Assembly: GCF_021869765.1 (NCBI RefSeq)
Contig: NZ_CP084580.1
Location: forward strand, 3,100,001 to 3,164,000
DNA: 64,000 nt
Direction: 5' to 3'
DNA from: Chryseobacterium sp. MEBOG06
Lineage (GTDB): Bacteria; Bacteroidota; Bacteroidia; Flavobacteriales; Weeksellaceae
How positions within the stretch are numbered: position 1 is the first letter of the stretch; the number at the start of each line of letters is the position of its first letter. The notes under the pieces were generated by a model. It saw only the letters and a program-made list of their open reading frames with translations, did no database searches and was not told where the DNA came from. A program made the position numbers and the translations under genes. This document shows, piece after piece, positions 23,663-33,420 of this stretch.

Positions 23663-24364
23663 CTAAGATGGATTTTCCGGTTTGGGGGTTCCTGTAGAAG
23701 AATTCTTTGCCGCCTTTAACAGTTCATTACTATCTGTGTAAAAAAGCTCCCAACCCGGGACATCTTTCATTATGGTAAGCAGACTGATATAGGATTTAAG
23801 ATTCTTTTCCAGATTTTTGCGGATAGCGGAAGCACTGGACATAAGGCGGAGGCCTGCGTTCGCTTCTGCCTGTTCTGCAAATACAGATTCAAATTCCTCA
23901 TGTTTTGTTTTCATTTCTTCAAAAGCTTCATCCAGCGAAAGGATTTTCATCTTCTGTTTATTTTCCGGAAGTTCCAGTGTTTCGATCAGCTTTTTCATCT
24001 GGGCAGTTTGGGAAGAATAGCTCAGACGATCAAGGTCTAATCCGAAAGTTTTAAACACCTGATAAAGTTCTTCTGCCACGTTATAATTGGCCATTAAAGT
24101 GAGTTTTCGATAGCCATTCAAAAAGGCTTTTATATTGCTATAAGCGAGATCCCTTTCATGATCCAGGGCTGCCACATCTTTTCCTTTTCCACTGTATATA
24201 TGTTTCACGTACACCTTATCATATTCAGCATAGGAAGCTTCCAAAGTGGCAATAAGAGGATGATTAGTAATTACAGGATATTTTCCTGAATGGAAATTGG
24301 AAATAATTCTCTGAGCCAAAGTCGCAAGATCTTTAGTACTCAGTTTGGTGAGTGCAATGTTCAT
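23663..24364 (-). CDS. DUF6261-like helical protein
   Basis: A 233-aa soluble, mostly helical protein starting MNIALTKLSTKDLATLAQRI and with LDHERDLAYSNIKAFLNGYRKLTLMA, typical of the DUF6261 group in Bacteroidota. No signal peptide or enzyme motif is visible. Function unknown. It has a well-formed promoter (24397-24426) and terminator, so it is transcribed alone. The upstream side carries the GC-rich repeat at 24418-24600, part of which overlaps the promoter. Confidence 0.7.
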   Translation of the reverse strand: MNIALTKLSTKDLATLAQRIISNFHSGKYPVITNHPLIATLEASYAEYDKVYVKHIYSGKGKDVAALDHERDLAYSNIKAFLNGYRKLTLMANYNVAEELYQVFKTFGLDLDRLSYSSQTAQMKKLIETLELPENKQKMKILSLDEAFEEMKTKHEEFESVFAEQAEANAGLRLMSSASAIRKNLEKNLKSYISLLTIMKDVPGWELFYTDSNELLKAAKNSSTGTPKPENPS

Positions 24365-24396: not shown

Positions 24397-24426
24397 CAAA
24401 TATATAAAAAAATCGTGAAGTGACAA
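24397..24426 (-). promoter_or_regulatory. Promoter of the DUF6261 gene
   Basis: On the minus strand TTG (24424-24426), 19-nt spacer, TATATTTG (24397-24404), an exact fit to TTG-N17-23-TAnnTTTG. It lies 32 nt before the start codon. The -33 box sits inside the first unit of the GC-rich repeat. Confidence 0.75.
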
Positions 24427-24600
24427 ACACCCTTAAAACAAATCTCCGGAGGGCTCGGGAGGTCTCCCACAACTTGCAGGAGACTTCCGGAGCGCTCCGG
24501 AAGTCACAAACACTATTGTTTTAAACCAACGGAGCGCTCGGGAGGTTTGTTTTACTAGTGAATGTGAGTTCCGGAGAGGTTGTGGAGGTTGCAAACAGGG
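24418..24600. repeat. GC-rich degenerate repeat with long palindrome
   Basis: Three related units begin near 24418 (AAGTGACAAACAC), 24501 (AAGTCACAAACAC) and 24587 (GGTTGCAAACAGG), a spacing of about 83-86 bp. Each is followed by a TTGTTTT/TTAAAACA word and a GC-rich part such as GGAGCGCTCGGGAGG. A perfect 24-bp palindrome lies at 24482-24505 (core CTTCCGGAGCGCTCCGGAAG). Bases 24435-24456 and 24531-24553 are near-inverted arms starting AAAACAAA. The GC content stands out from the AT-rich surroundings. No ORF is seen. Confidence 0.7.
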
Positions 24601-24702
24601 TTGTTTTGAGATTGGAAATTTTTTTTGATTACATACGGTAAACCGTAATTGAAACTAAGTGAAATTCTACAAATTTGATAATTAATTAAAAAAGATACAA
24701 CC

Positions 24703-24903
24703 ATGAGTGATTTAGATAATTCTTTAATAAAAAGAAAGATTGAAAGCCAAAAATGTTCTAAACATAATGAGAAACCACAATTTATAAAAACCCAGAAAGA
24801 GTTTGAAATTAAAGCATGCTGTGAAGATTTCAGAACTATTTTATTTAAGAAATCCAAAAGCATTATTGCAGAAGAAACCAAAAAAATGATGAAAAATATT
24901 TAA
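24703..24903 (+). CDS. Small Cys/His protein, first gene of PHP-ATPase cassette
   Basis: A 66-aa charged protein. C18-x2-H21 (QKCSKHNEKPQF) and a CC pair at 39-40 (EIKACCEDFR) could bind a metal ion. The C-terminal third is Lys-rich and helical (KSKSIIAEETKKMMKNI). It has no signal peptide. It ends 15 bp before the PHP-ATPase gene on the same strand and shares its extreme AT bias. I recall similar short C-x2-H...CC proteins next to mobile genes in Bacteroidota, without known function. Confidence 0.6.
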   Translation: MSDLDNSLIKRKIESQKCSKHNEKPQFIKTQKEFEIKACCEDFRTILFKKSKSIIAEETKKMMKNI

Positions 24904-24918
24904 AAAAATAATACCATT

Positions 24919-27228
24919 ATGAAACCAATTTTTGTAGATATACATATTCATACTTCTGATGATCCAGATAATCTAAATTCAAATTACCCAGTTGAAACTT
25001 TAATAAGTAAAATTAAAGAATTTACTAATGATTCGGATTTTCTAATTTCTTTAACCGATCATAACACTATTAATGAGAACGCCTATTTGAAGGCTGTACA
25101 ATTAGGAGTAAACATCATTTTAGGTGTTGAACTGCATATAAAAAATTATGAAGACTGTCCTGCTTATCATTGCCATATCTATTTTGATGTTAATGAAATA
25201 ACGCAAAATACACTTGTTGATATTAATGCAAAATTAAATAAACTTTACCCTAAGAAGGTTGTCGAAAAATTGGATCCCACTATACCAACAATTCAACAAG
25301 TAATAAATGAGTTCGACAATTACGAATTTATTTTATTACCTCACGGAGGACAATCACATGCAACATTTGACACATCTATTCCAGAAGGGGTTAAATTTGA
25401 TACAACTTTGGAAAAAAGCATTTACTACAATCAGTTTGATGGTTTTACTGCGAGAGGTAATCGAGGTTTAGAAAGAACACAAGAATACTTTATAAAACTT
25501 GGAATCAATGAATTCGTAAATTTAATAACCTGTAGTGATAATTATAATCCGACAGTATATCCCAATGGAAAAGATCAAAATCCCTATATACCAACTTGGA
25601 TGCTGGCCTTGCCCACTTTTAATGGGTTACGATTATCATTATCCGAGTCCTCAAGATTAATTTATTCCGAAACTAAACCCGAATTTTGGTCAGAAAACAT
25701 TGAAAGTATTTCGCTTAATAAGGCAAATATTGAAATTGATGTAAAATTTAAATCTGGTTTAAATGTTGTTATTGGTAGCTCATCAAGTGGTAAATCCTTA
25801 CTTGTAGATTCAATATATAAAAATATAACTACAACAACAGCTGAATCTATATATTTAAGTCAATATGAAATAGATAAAGTAGTCATTAAAAACCCCTCCG
25901 GTATGACCCCTCATTTTTTATCTCAAAATTATATAATGAGCGTAGTAAATAATGTATCAGAAAATAAAATTGATGATATTGATATTATTAAAAATGTTTT
26001 TCCGGGTGATGACGAAGTAAAAGAGCAAATTACTAGAGGATTAGCAGAATTTAAAAAAGATGTCATTGCTTTAATAAAACAAGTACGGATAATTGATAAA
26101 GAAATTCAAAATTTTAACAACATACCAGTTATTTCAAGACTTATAATTAATGATAATTTACAATCAAATCCTTTTAAGAGTCTACAACCAAGTGATTTAG
26201 AAAAATCAAGATTAGAATTTTCTAAATCAAAATATGATAATTATAATTTAAGTTTGGATGAGGTAGAAGAATTCTTAAGCAGATATCCTTTTGTCAAGCA
26301 TAATTTAGATCTTATAAAAGAGTTGAAATCAGAATTAGAATTGGCTTATAATAATTTTTTTAACGAAAGTTCAACAAGAAAAATTGTCGATAGTTACAAA
26401 AAAGAATTTGATGATTTGTTAAGAGAAAATAATTCTGAAGATCAAAGTAAAAAACTACATTTTGAAAAATTAATTGAAACATTAAAGATATATGTAAAAG
26501 CTTATAAAAGATTTAATGAAATACTATCTAAAATTTCCAGTTACAATCTAAATTTTGGATCTGAAGTTATTGAATCCATGGGGCATAAACTTTATATTGA
26601 AAATGATTTTAAACTTGACAAAGAAAAGTTTATTGAGATTGTAAATTACTATCTAAAAATCAAAATTGATAGATTCGAAAATATCACACCTAATTTATTA
26701 TTTGAAACTAACCATAAAGGAAAAAACCCCAAGGTCCACGGATATGATGATTTCGAAAAGAAAATATATACCGATTTTGAAAATTTAAATAGAAAAAACT
26801 ATAAAATTATAACACAAGAAGGTAAAGATTTTGATTCTTTAAGTCCAGGATGGAAAACATCTGTGATTTTAGATTTGATATTGGGTTATGAAGAAGATAT
26901 TTCTCCTATAATAATTGATCAACCAGAAGATAATTTAGCAACTAATTATATTAATAAAGGACTTGTTAATGCAATTAAGAAAATTAAAGCAAAAAAGCAA
27001 GTTATTCTGGTTTCGCACAATGCAACTATTCCGATGCTTGCCGATGCTCAAAATATAATTCTATGTAGAAATATTGATAATAAAATTGTTATTACATCAT
27101 GTGAGCTTGAAGGTAAAATCGGAGATAAATATGTTGTTGATTATATTGCTGAAATTACTGATGGTGGAAAATCCTCTATAAAGAAACGAGTAAAAAAGTA
27201 TAATTTAAAAAAATATAATGAATCATGA
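24919..27228 (+). CDS. PHP phosphoesterase-ATPase fusion (candidate defence protein)
   Basis: A 769-aa protein. The N-terminal PHP domain (about 3-215) shows HIHTSDD (H9, H11), TDHNT (D47, H48), GVELH (E71, H73), PHGGQSH (H142, H147) and CSDNYNP (D207): a nearly complete metal-site set for a phosphoesterase or nuclease. An SMC/RecF-type ATPase follows: Walker A GSSSSGKS (286-293), a helical middle (360-620), signature-like LSPGWK (641-646), Walker B IIIDQPEDN (D667) and a switch-like SHNA (H700). The layout resembles antiphage PHP-ATPases (Ppl) and TrlF-type proteins. It overlaps the next gene by four bases. Its A/T-ending codon use is more extreme than that of its neighbours, suggesting transfer. 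Confidence 0.8.
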   Translation: MKPIFVDIHIHTSDDPDNLNSNYPVETLISKIKEFTNDSDFLISLTDHNTINENAYLKAVQLGVNIILGVELHIKNYEDCPAYHCHIYFDVNEITQNTLVDINAKLNKLYPKKVVEKLDPTIPTIQQVINEFDNYEFILLPHGGQSHATFDTSIPEGVKFDTTLEKSIYYNQFDGFTARGNRGLERTQEYFIKLGINEFVNLITCSDNYNPTVYPNGKDQNPYIPTWMLALPTFNGLRLSLSESSRLIYSETKPEFWSENIESISLNKANIEIDVKFKSGLNVVIGSSSSGKSLLVDSIYKNITTTTAESIYLSQYEIDKVVIKNPSGMTPHFLSQNYIMSVVNNVSENKIDDIDIIKNVFPGDDEVKEQITRGLAEFKKDVIALIKQVRIIDKEIQNFNNIPVISRLIINDNLQSNPFKSLQPSDLEKSRLEFSKSKYDNYNLSLDEVEEFLSRYPFVKHNLDLIKELKSELELAYNNFFNESSTRKIVDSYKKEFDDLLRENNSEDQSKKLHFEKLIETLKIYVKAYKRFNEILSKISSYNLNFGSEVIESMGHKLYIENDFKLDKEKFIEIVNYYLKIKIDRFENITPNLLFETNHKGKNPKVHGYDDFEKKIYTDFENLNRKNYKIITQEGKDFDSLSPGWKTSVILDLILGYEEDISPIIIDQPEDNLATNYINKGLVNAIKKIKAKKQVILVSHNATIPMLADAQNIILCRNIDNKIVITSCELEGKIGDKYVVDYIAEITDGGKSSIKKRVKKYNLKKYNES

Positions 27229-27476
27229 AACTAGTATTTACAAAAGAGAGTAATAACGATATTAAAGTACAAATTCAAACAGGTACAGTCCTTACAGATT
27301 TTAGCTATATAGAAATGGTAAAACAATTGATAGAAAATAAAAAAATTGATGATGTTTATTCTGATAGTTTCGAAGAGGATGAAAAAGCCAAAATAATAAA
27401 GATGCTAGATGAGATTAGTAAAATTTTCACTGAAGAAGAAGGCTCTAATTCTAACTCAGAAAATGAGATTAATTAA
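27225..27476 (+). CDS. Small acidic protein, third gene of PHP-ATPase cassette
   Basis: An 83-aa protein overlapping the PHP-ATPase by the ATGA of its start, so translation is coupled. The N-terminus looks like two beta strands (KLVFTKESNNDIKVQIQTGT), then a helical acidic part (FSYIEMVKQLIENKKIDDV, DEKAKIIKMLDEISKIF) and an acidic tail. No known domain is seen. It may be a regulator or stabiliser of the ATPase; this is inferred only from the coupled position. Confidence 0.6.
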   Translation: MKLVFTKESNNDIKVQIQTGTVLTDFSYIEMVKQLIENKKIDDVYSDSFEEDEKAKIIKMLDEISKIFTEEEGSNSNSENEIN

Positions 27477-27583: not shown

Positions 27584-28801
27584 TTATGTTTTGAATACTT
27601 TAGCAGGATCACCACCTGCAAAAAGGATTAGAATGGCAGTAATCATATCGCGAAGTTCCATAGTAATGCGTCTCTTTGCCGTTTTGTATCCTAAGTCGTT
27701 TGCTTTTTTGTAGATCAATAACAACATAGAAGCGATCATCGTCATATAGACCATCACTTCAATTCCGTTTTTATTAAGTGAAACAAGATGACTTAAATTG
27801 AGCTCTTGTTTCATAAACCTGAAGAACACCTCAATATCCCATCTTTTACTGTAATAATCCGATATTTCTTTGGCAGAAAGTTCAAATTCGTTGGTGATAA
27901 ACCAGAACTCTTTGTCTGTCTTTTCGTTTTTTATGACCATCAGTCTAAAATGTGTTTCCACTTTTTCTTCCCGATGATGGATGTTTCCACGTTTGTTTTG
28001 GATGGGTTTTCCCGTGTAAAGTTTTACCTTACTGTCTTTAATAGCTTTCCAGCTATCCCATTCTACAGTACTTTCCGGTTTAAGAAAAGATTCGATCTCT
28101 TCAAATTTTCTGTTTTCTTTAGAGCGAACAATAAATTTTATATCTTTTTCTTCAAATTCTTTTATGGTTCTGGTGGATTGTAAGCCCCTGTCTATGATAT
28201 AAATATTATCGTGGTGTTCTTCTTTTTTTACCTGCTTCAAAATAGCCTCAGCAAGAGCATTGTCTTCTGCCGAATACTTTTGCCCCGTAAAAATCTCTAC
28301 TGCCGATGGTAGAACTCCATCAAAGGAAAAACTGAATTTCACCAATTTTTTACCGCTTTTCTGATCGATGCCTTCCTTAAGCTTATTGCAGGTATCGGCA
28401 ACAATAGTACTGTCAACCCGGATTAAGTTATATTTTTCGATTTCGGTCCTGGGATAAAGTTCCGAAAATTTTCCGTACATCTGTTCATAAATTTCTTTGA
28501 AATAATTAGAATCGATTTTTGAAAGCCGCTCTGAAATCGAACTCCTGCGGACTTTTTCCTCTTCTCCCAAGCCAAATAATGCCTTAAATCCGCTGCTGTT
28601 AAAAGTATCTTCCAAAGTTCTCTGACTTAATTTTTCGTTATCGAAAATACAGAACAAAAGCAAGTAGAACATTTTTTTGCCATGCAGAACCTTACTGTAA
28701 TAATCTACTTTAGTAGTAGCAGAAAGATGGCTTAAAAGGGCTTCGGGAATAAATTCTAAAACATTTTTAAGTGATATCTTGTGATCTTTAAAAACTGACA
28801 T
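27584..28801 (-). CDS. IS4-family transposase
   Basis: A 405-aa DDE transposase from the ATG at 28801 (a longer in-frame start at 28852 would lie upstream of the promoter). Catalytic residues are D130 (IRVDSTIV), D204 (YIIDRGL) and E324. The IS4 YREK signature is exact: Y317-x2-R320-x3-E324-x6-K331 in YYSKRWDIEVFFRFMK. The full length and intact motifs suggest function. It is read opposite to the cassette upstream and insulated by terminators at both element ends. Confidence 0.93.
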   Translation of the reverse strand: MSVFKDHKISLKNVLEFIPEALLSHLSATTKVDYYSKVLHGKKMFYLLLFCIFDNEKLSQRTLEDTFNSSGFKALFGLGEEEKVRRSSISERLSKIDSNYFKEIYEQMYGKFSELYPRTEIEKYNLIRVDSTIVADTCNKLKEGIDQKSGKKLVKFSFSFDGVLPSAVEIFTGQKYSAEDNALAEAILKQVKKEEHHDNIYIIDRGLQSTRTIKEFEEKDIKFIVRSKENRKFEEIESFLKPESTVEWDSWKAIKDSKVKLYTGKPIQNKRGNIHHREEKVETHFRLMVIKNEKTDKEFWFITNEFELSAKEISDYYSKRWDIEVFFRFMKQELNLSHLVSLNKNGIEVMVYMTMIASMLLLIYKKANDLGYKTAKRRITMELRDMITAILILFAGGDPAKVFKT

Positions 28802-28821
28802 AAACAATTGATTATCAGTAG

Positions 28822-28852
28822 CAAAGATACAAAAAAACAAGCAATAAAACAA
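28822..28852 (-). promoter_or_regulatory. Transposase promoter
   Basis: On the minus strand TTG (28850-28852), 20-nt spacer, TATCTTTG (28822-28829): a textbook Bacteroidota promoter. The predicted start of transcription falls near 28815, about 15 nt before the ATG at 28801. Confidence 0.85.
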
Positions 28853-31289: not shown

Positions 31290-33275
31290 TTACAGTAAAT
31301 TTTCATCTACAAAGTTAGGAAGGGTCACTTTCAGATTAGGTTCTGCTTCCATGGCTCTTTTAATAGCGAAAACAGCGCCTTCATTTCTGGCCCAGCTTCT
31401 TCTTGAGATTCCGTTATTAACGTCCCAGAAAAGCATAGACTTTAATCTTCTGTCAGCATCTTCAGTACCATCCAGCAGCATTCCGAAACCACCGTTGATC
31501 ACTTCTCCCCAGCCTACTCCGCCTCCATTGTGAATGGAAACCCATGTAGCACCACGGAAACTGTCACCAATGACATTGTGAATGGCCATATCTGCTGTAA
31601 ATCTTGATCCGTCATAGATATTGGAGGTTTCTCTGTAAGGAGAATCTGTTCCGGAAACATCATGATGGTCTCTACCCAATACTACGGGTCCGATTTCACC
31701 GTTTTTAATGGCATTGTTGAAAGCTTCGGCAATTTTCATTCTACCTTCAGCATCCGCGTAGAGAATTCTTGCCTGTGAACCAACAACCAGTTTATTTTCC
31801 TGTGCTCCTTTGATCCACTGAATATTGTCTTTCATCTGCTGCTGAATCTCTTCAGGAGAGTTTTTCACCATTTCTTCCAATACTGCGCAGGCAATATTGT
31901 CGGTTTTCTGTAAATCTTCCGGGTTTCCGCTGGAACATACCCAACGGAACGGCCCGAAGCCGTAATCAAAGCACATAGGCCCCATAATATCCTGAACGTA
32001 GCTAGGATACTTGAATTCTCTTCCCAATGTAGGATTTTCTGCCATTACATCTGCTCCCGCTCTGGATGCTTCCAGTAAAAAGGCATTTCCGTAATCGAAG
32101 AAATAAGTTCCTTTCTCTGTATGTTTATTGATGGCTGCAGCGTGTCTTCTTAAAGTTTCCTGAACTTTTTCTTTGAATAATTCAGGATTTTCAGCCATCA
32201 TGATATTGGATTCTTCAAAACTCTGTCCGGCCGGATAGTATCCACCCGCCCATGGATTATGAAGTGAAGTCTGATCTGAACCGATATCAATTCTTAAATC
32301 GTCCTGATCAAATTTCTCCCAAACTTCTACTATATTTCCAAGGTAAGCCAGAGAAACGGTTTCTTTGTTTTCCTGAGCTTCTCTCACTCTTTTTACCAAT
32401 GCGTCAAGGTCTTCATAGATCTCATTCACCCATTTCTGATCATGACGTATTTTTGTGATTTTCGGATTCACTTCCGCACATACGGTAACGCATCCTGCAA
32501 TATTTCCTGCTTTTGGCTGAGCACCGCTCATTCCTCCTAATCCTGAGGTTACAAATAATCCTCCTTTCGGTTCTTTCTTAATTTTTCTGAAAGCATTTAA
32601 AACTGTAATCGTTGTGCCGTGTACAATTCCCTGCGGGCCAATATACATATAACTTCCTGCAGTCATCTGCCCATACTGGGTAACTCCTAATGCATTGAAT
32701 TTCTCCCAGTCATCCGGTTTTGAATAATTCGGGATCATCATTCCATTGGTTACCACTACTCTTGGAGCCTCTTTATGAGATGGAAACAATCCCATCGGAT
32801 GTCCTGAATACATGACCAGGGTCTGTTCATTGGTCATTTCAGACAGATACTTCATCGTCAGCAGGTACTGCGCCCAGTTAGAAAACACAGCTCCGTTTCC
32901 TCCGTACGTAATCAGTTCGTGAGGGTGCTGTGCCACTGCATAATCCAGGTTATTCTGAATCATCAGCATAATTGCTTTTGCCTGCTCAGATTTCCCGGGA
33001 TAGTCTGTGATAGGTCTTGCCTTCATTTCATAATCCGGACGGAAACGATACATATAGATTCTTCCATAGTCCTCTAATTCCTGCTTAAATTCAGGAATCA
33101 GTTCTGCATGAAACTGAGGTTCGAAATAACGTAAAGCATTCTTCAATGCCAGTTTTTTCTCTTCTTCTCCTAAAATTTCTTTACGCTTCGGAGCATGGTT
33201 GATATTGGTCTCGTATGGTTTAGGCTGTGGCAGCTGGCCGGGTATCCCCTGTTGTATCTGTTCTTGAAATGTCAT
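31290..33275 (-). CDS. hutU: Urocanate hydratase
   Basis: A 661-aa NAD-dependent enzyme converting urocanate to imidazolone propionate in histidine breakdown. Motifs include ITYGGNGAVFSNWAQYL, MTAGSYMYIGPQGIVHGT, GLGGMSGAQPKAGNIAG and GRDHHDVSGTDSPYRET. The length exceeds the usual 550-570 aa, as I recall for some Bacteroidota forms. The ATG at 33275 is preferred over an earlier one at 33305 because TFQEQIQQGIPGQLP is the natural N-terminus. No hutH, hutI or hutG is in the window. A Crp-like gene follows in the same direction. Confidence 0.93.
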   Translation of the reverse strand: MTFQEQIQQGIPGQLPQPKPYETNINHAPKRKEILGEEEKKLALKNALRYFEPQFHAELIPEFKQELEDYGRIYMYRFRPDYEMKARPITDYPGKSEQAKAIMLMIQNNLDYAVAQHPHELITYGGNGAVFSNWAQYLLTMKYLSEMTNEQTLVMYSGHPMGLFPSHKEAPRVVVTNGMMIPNYSKPDDWEKFNALGVTQYGQMTAGSYMYIGPQGIVHGTTITVLNAFRKIKKEPKGGLFVTSGLGGMSGAQPKAGNIAGCVTVCAEVNPKITKIRHDQKWVNEIYEDLDALVKRVREAQENKETVSLAYLGNIVEVWEKFDQDDLRIDIGSDQTSLHNPWAGGYYPAGQSFEESNIMMAENPELFKEKVQETLRRHAAAINKHTEKGTYFFDYGNAFLLEASRAGADVMAENPTLGREFKYPSYVQDIMGPMCFDYGFGPFRWVCSSGNPEDLQKTDNIACAVLEEMVKNSPEEIQQQMKDNIQWIKGAQENKLVVGSQARILYADAEGRMKIAEAFNNAIKNGEIGPVVLGRDHHDVSGTDSPYRETSNIYDGSRFTADMAIHNVIGDSFRGATWVSIHNGGGVGWGEVINGGFGMLLDGTEDADRRLKSMLFWDVNNGISRRSWARNEGAVFAIKRAMEAEPNLKVTLPNFVDENLL

Positions 33276-33420
33276 ATTGCTATTGAAAGTTCTATGTTTA
33301 AACAATGTTTGAAGTTTTAAAGATATTCAAATTATAAAATATCTGCAACAAAACGGGAGAAAAGCTGGAGAAGCGAAAAAGTTCAGGACTTTAAAGGCAA
33401 ACAAACAGTCTTTATCGGAT

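Follow-up and report, generated by a model that had tools for sequence, protein, structure and literature searches.

The locus studied here raises two questions: which genes of a small cassette, carried by a Chryseobacterium-type genome, belong together, and what the large enzyme that it encodes could be used for. The earlier note on this DNA had proposed an undescribed antiphage system of three genes, in which a protein joining a PHP domain to an ATPase (gene 2) would be accompanied by a mini-protein encoded in front of it (gene 1) and by an acidic protein encoded behind it (gene 3). On the basis of the window, i.e., the whole stretch of 64,000 nucleotides that was analysed, and of searches over sampled genomes, we found that the cassette consists of two genes, 2 and 3, and not of three. 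Because the pair is rare and mobile and occupies a site at which related bacteria carry other antiviral systems, we consider it a probable relative, not yet described, of a known enzyme of phage defence.

Layout and distribution of the cassette

The three plus-strand open reading frames were all found where they had been reported (Table 1), with a spacing of 15 bp between genes 1 and 2 and a 4-bp overlap, ATGA, between genes 2 and 3; the AT bias was borne out as well, since the GC content of the cassette is 24–27% versus 35.5% in the window. The closest relative of the locus is that of C. takakiae. The PHP-ATPase was found in 2 of 148 genomes of the genus and in 2 of 395 genomes of the phylum, so that its distribution is accessory rather than core, as anticipated. 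In total, five loci with the PHP-ATPase and gene 3 were collected from the sampled genomes, two from Chryseobacterium and one each from Moheibacter, Flavobacterium and Ferruginibacter; these few loci are the family sample on which the following comparisons are made. The gene pair is rare, mobile and accessory. Carriage by phages or plasmids was rejected, as phage records, plasmid records and viral contigs held no close relative of the cassette.

The earlier description of a cassette bordered by a repeat field and an IS was right in part. A short repeat stretch and an IS do exist on the two sides; however, the IS does not delimit the unit, because in C. takakiae the same cassette lies at the same site, between the DUF6261 gene and hutU, and the IS is absent. 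For the same reason the IS was rejected as the mobiliser of the cassette, and it is an unrelated neighbour.

Table 1. Features of the locus, with positions in the window unless a locus handle is given.
Feature	Position	Strand	Description	Remark
Gene 1	24703..24903	+	66 aa, CxxH...CC mini-protein of a genus-resident family	probably not a system component
Gene 2	24919..27228	+	769 aa, PHP domain (~1-250) and SMC/Rad50-type ATPase head with coiled-coil insertion (~259-750)	
Gene 3	27225..27476	+	83 aa, acidic partner, pI ~4.4, translationally coupled	in 5/5 loci
DUF6261 gene	23663..24364	-	left flank of cargo hotspot	
hutU	31290..33305	-	right flank of cargo hotspot	presumably urocanate hydratase
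DDE transposase	27584..28852	-	transposase of the IS adjoining the cassette	missing at the C. takakiae sister locus
Palindrome	24633..24648		ATACGGTAAACCGTAA, candidate operator, ~68 bp 5' of gene 1 start	1 mismatch
Repeat stretch	~24417-24546		short, GC-rich, left of cassette	
Further palindrome sites	G000:C1:2484199, 3634313, 5066975; L077:2825; L002:5919; L198-L227 position 1501			

The PHP-ATPase and its small acidic partner

The presence of an N-terminal PHP domain and a C-terminal SMC-like ATPase in a single chain was confirmed for gene 2. Its matches in Pfam, to SMC_N and PHP, are weak. An AlphaFold2 model built on a 22-row alignment (mean pLDDT 69, pTM 0.55) resembled, in residues 259–749, the heads of SMC/Rad50 proteins (best Z 18.0 over 233 residues, 3.3 Å) and, in its PHP part, the PHP phosphoesterase 3o0f, Pol III alpha and RNase AM, with E values of about 1e-4. 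The four orthologues are 62–87% identical to the window protein and, over the five members of the family, all the catalytic positions singled out earlier are invariant or nearly so, namely the PHP metal residues H9, H11, D47, H48, E71, H142 and D207 and, in the ATPase, the Walker A motif at 286–293 with its lysine, D667 in the stretch D667-Q-P-E-D, and H700; no variation at all was seen in the PHP residues, the Walker A lysine, the stretch D667-Q-P-E-D and H700. In the 22-row alignment, which includes distant relatives, D7, H11, E71, D207, G291-K292, D667 and H700 are invariant, and the core residues are kept in comparison with 18 relatives from viral contigs that share only 16–23% identity. 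The last ligand position of the canonical PHP motif D-x-H is occupied in gene 2 by Tyr (S-D-N-Y).

In a tree of 61 rows, the five members formed one clade with support of 100. Its stem is the longest in the tree (2.75 changes per column), and with so long a branch the exact placement of the clade with respect to the TrlF clades is unsure. By its sequence, the family is best described as a deep and separate branch of the Ppl/TrlF/Spaf_1101 group.

Gene 3 lies directly 3' of the PHP-ATPase gene in all five loci. The junction is a 4-nt overlap in the window and in C. takakiae, a 1-nt overlap in Moheibacter, and a 1-nt gap in Ferruginibacter and Flavobacterium. When 296 genomes of the order were searched with a gene 3 profile, three loci were retrieved, all adjoining a PHP-ATPase, and none elsewhere. 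The core of the protein, GT..DFSY.EM..QL, is invariant, and its acidic tail is variable. Both genes are under purifying selection, with dN/dS of ~0.06 for gene 2 and ~0.08 for gene 3 between the window and C. takakiae, values that are only approximate because dS exceeds 1. The predicted fold of gene 3 (beta-beta-beta-alpha-beta-alpha, pLDDT 74) gave no significant match in fold searches (best E in Foldseek 0.074), and the best VIA match, to TolR (Z 6.1, 61 residues, 2.0 Å), is at a level that the tool calls a common arrangement; the model could represent an unlisted fold. An identification as Cas4, suggested by marginal matches in PADLOC-DB 2.0.0 (E 0.0029) and NCBIfam (E 0.011), was rejected as composition-driven chance. 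The role of gene 3 is a guess, since its fold matches nothing significantly; we favour a regulatory or adaptor subunit, because the protein is conserved, small and acidic, is coupled to the PHP-ATPase and has so far turned up only in this branch.

On the whole, we lean towards a two-subunit PHP nuclease-ATPase directed against phages or other mobile elements, which would work like Ppl and in which gene 3 would be the regulatory or adaptor subunit. From the domains and the gene order, we infer that the SMC/Rad50-type ATPase would gate the attached metal-dependent PHP nuclease, as described for Ppl, and would do so on sensing nucleic acid that is damaged or foreign, with DNA ends as the likeliest signal. 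The gene 3 protein, presumably produced in step with the enzyme by translational coupling, would most likely restrain the nuclease or couple the state of the ATPase to nuclease activity. Against this reading stand the Tyr at the last PHP ligand position, the weak resemblance to Ppl in the C-terminal ATPase part only, the cargo at the chromosomal site that shows no known defence domain, and the isolation of the Moheibacter and Flavobacterium copies from defence genes. If gene 3 always accompanies the branch, what keeps a PHP nuclease off the host genome can be tested directly, with one protein of 83 amino acids added or taken away.

The same gene pair may be read as an abortive-infection or toxin-antitoxin-like module, with a toxic PHP-ATPase and gene 3 as the antidote, released when a phage perturbs the host. 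A small, acidic, translationally coupled partner, present once per locus and never found alone, would fit this explanation, and its acidity could mask a nucleic-acid site. However, classical antitoxin genes usually precede the toxin and gene 3 is downstream; moreover, a predicted mixed alpha-beta fold with an invariant core is not what a purely disordered acidic chain would show, and we regard the antidote as rather unlikely.

Chromosomal site, upstream palindrome and the first gene

Across Chryseobacterium, the stretch that the cassette occupies, flanked by the DUF6261 gene and hutU (loci L071-L089), is a cargo hotspot. In 18 other genomes of the genus with both flanks, it measures 1.7–5.3 kb and its content, mostly AT-rich, differs from genome to genome. 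The defence-type surroundings expected for the cassette were indeed recognised in PADLOC, in which ten cargo proteins were tested: the matches include Menshen NsnA/NsnB (360/341 bits), AbiU (429 bits) and a relative of Thoeris ThsB (341 bits), as well as relatives of HEC-01A, HEC-03B and PDC-S60, and in some of the cargo no defence domain was recognised. In Moheibacter and Flavobacterium, the cassette stands by itself, with non-defence genes around it. The surroundings of the Ferruginibacter copy (L003:4026-10824), in which a 640-aa GHKL ATPase is encoded on the 5' side and the opposite strand carries an HD-GHKL (HD-CE) gene, resemble a defence island.

Upstream of the cassette lies a palindrome, TTACGG-N4-CCGTAA, whose match in the window is the only one when up to one mismatch is allowed, against 0.04 expected. 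At three loci its inner part, ACGG-N4-CCGT, precedes the first gene by 66–80 bp; the Flavobacterium copy is preceded by a one-mismatch match to the full pattern, and none was found at the Ferruginibacter locus when the palindrome was searched there. Perfect sites occur in 58 of 60 genomes of the genus, from 1 to 12 in each and about 5 per genome, in comparison with 0 or 1 for a reversed-pattern control. At 30 loci, one per genome, no site fell inside a long open reading frame, and many were placed 30–90 bp before a gene. The genes that follow across the genus include GajA (494 bits), QatA (354 bits), Vsr and AbiU types, and some others have no evident link to defence. Of ten proteins encoded downstream, 6 matched PADLOC at 1e-5, compared to 0 of 10 control genes of the window; as the ten were picked by hand, the association of the palindrome with defence genes is suggestive and is not to be read as a rate. 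These observations suggest a candidate operator of a regulon of defence or accessory genes. It is also possible, though we put it forward only tentatively, that the cassette represents a new branch of two-subunit PHP-SMC defence nucleases under the control of a dedicated acidic alpha-beta mini-protein whose fold is not a recognised one; in Chryseobacterium, its genus-wide palindromic operator would be common to Gabija-, Qat- and AbiU-type genes in a coordinated defence regulon. Both the hotspot and the palindrome offer a simple route by which more defence cargo could be found in this genus and in related bacteria.

The site and the palindrome also bear on whether the enzyme could serve in DNA repair or nucleotide metabolism instead of defence, as an accessory Rad50-like ATPase and PHP phosphoesterase acting on damaged ends. 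In favour of this are the ATPase fold, which is closest to SMC/Rad50 heads, and the PHP domains known also from DNA polymerases. Nevertheless, the cassette is very patchy, low in GC and placed in a hotspot whose cargo includes defence genes, it shares an upstream element with such genes, and a related TrlF gene sits inside a type I R-M operon, all of which make a repair enzyme unlikely in our opinion.

As for gene 1, it precedes the PHP-ATPase only in the two Chryseobacterium copies, 12–15 bp upstream. No homologous open reading frame was found before the PHP gene at the Moheibacter and Flavobacterium loci, and in Ferruginibacter the gene in that position encodes the GHKL ATPase, which is unrelated to gene 1. 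Homologues occur elsewhere: in another species, within the same hotspot, one of 73 aa, 61% identical, precedes a DUF3800 gene (L084:8543-9728), and others, one of them in the window's own genome, lie near a gene for an FKBP-type isomerase, named from its sequence, and have no PHP-ATPase beside them. The family conserves C18, H21 and C39-C40, which makes a small zinc protein plausible. Matches of gene 1 to SelP_C and PH_Tiam1 were treated as composition-driven chance, and PADLOC-DB 2.0.0 gave none. A three-component system with gene 1 as a zinc-binding sensor, for which the close spacing in both Chryseobacterium copies and a dN/dS of ~0.24 between them, indicative of purifying selection, could be adduced, is very improbable and was rejected, as gene 1 is missing before the orthologues of three genera and its homologues have other neighbours; its place beside the PHP-ATPase is probably not that of a component. 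The co-occurrence of both small genes with the PHP-ATPase in other Bacteroidota, on which the three-gene proposal depended, therefore holds for gene 3 and fails for gene 1: the absence beside orthologues that the earlier note had named as an argument against itself was found for the first gene, which is lacking in 3 of the 5 loci, and not for the last.

Comparison with known systems

No named system in PADLOC-DB 2.0.0 is matched by all the proteins of the cassette, in agreement with what the earlier note had supposed. A literature search, outside which most subscription papers and preprints lay, found no description of a PHP-ATPase with a small partner, nor any report that a member of the PHP-ATPase and gene 3 family had been tested against phages.

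Lamassu, Wadjet and PARIS use an SMC/Rad50-type ATPase as a sensor together with an effector nuclease; in the window, by contrast, the putative effector is a PHP domain fused to the N-terminus, and the similarity is at the level of the P-loop only (LmuB 24.7 bits). Spaf_1101 (NF045781) shares the layout of a PHP domain and an AAA-like ATPase, but gene 2 scores 100.3 bits, under the curated cut-off of 475, and is placed elsewhere in the tree; none of 198 Bacteroidota genomes had a Spaf_1101 above the cut-off.

TrlF (NF045780) is the best profile match of gene 2 and has the same domain order. The score of 179.5 bits is nevertheless under the cut-off of 350, as are those of orthologues (182.8 and 205.5 bits); furthermore, gene 2 is shorter and stands on its isolated stem. 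The TrlF loci examined lack a gene 3 homologue, and none above chance was found next to long TrlF or viral TrlF genes. In one TrlF clade the corresponding position is taken by an overlapping Schlafen/AlbA-like gene of ~385 aa, where the window has gene 3. This downstream gene, of ~385–397 aa and with a Schlafen/AlbA-like N-terminus as judged by eye, was seen at seven loci (L021, L023, L024, L028, L031, L154, L114); at L114, on a Klebsiella plasmid, it is annotated as 'RNA-binding domain-containing' and the pair lies inside the type I R-M operon. A split version of a TrlF-type protein, whose PHP half and ATPase half are encoded by adjoining but separate genes, was seen in a Vibrio tectivirus-like phage (L112:1259-3875).

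Ppl (NF042955; PADLOC PDLC02208) is described as a single-gene PHP exonuclease that acts 3'-5' on ssDNA and has NTPase and PHP domains, both inhibited by NTPs; nucleotide depletion and 3'-OH ends are given as the triggers (PMC12904381). Gene 2 differs from it in length (769 versus 882 aa), in its score (74.2 bits against a cut-off of 1000) and in having a fixed partner, gene 3, in all five loci; its match to Ppl in PADLOC-DB 2.0.0 is weak (66.6 bits), and no Ppl above the cut-off was found in 128 genomes. As gene 2 stays below the scores by which Ppl and TrlF are defined, it cannot be claimed to be either of them. On the other hand, gene 2 and Ppl both fuse a PHP domain to an SMC-like NTPase and keep the Walker and PHP residues, even though their alignment is weak and confined to the C-terminal ATPase part, and a mode of action like that of Ppl is plausible for gene 2.
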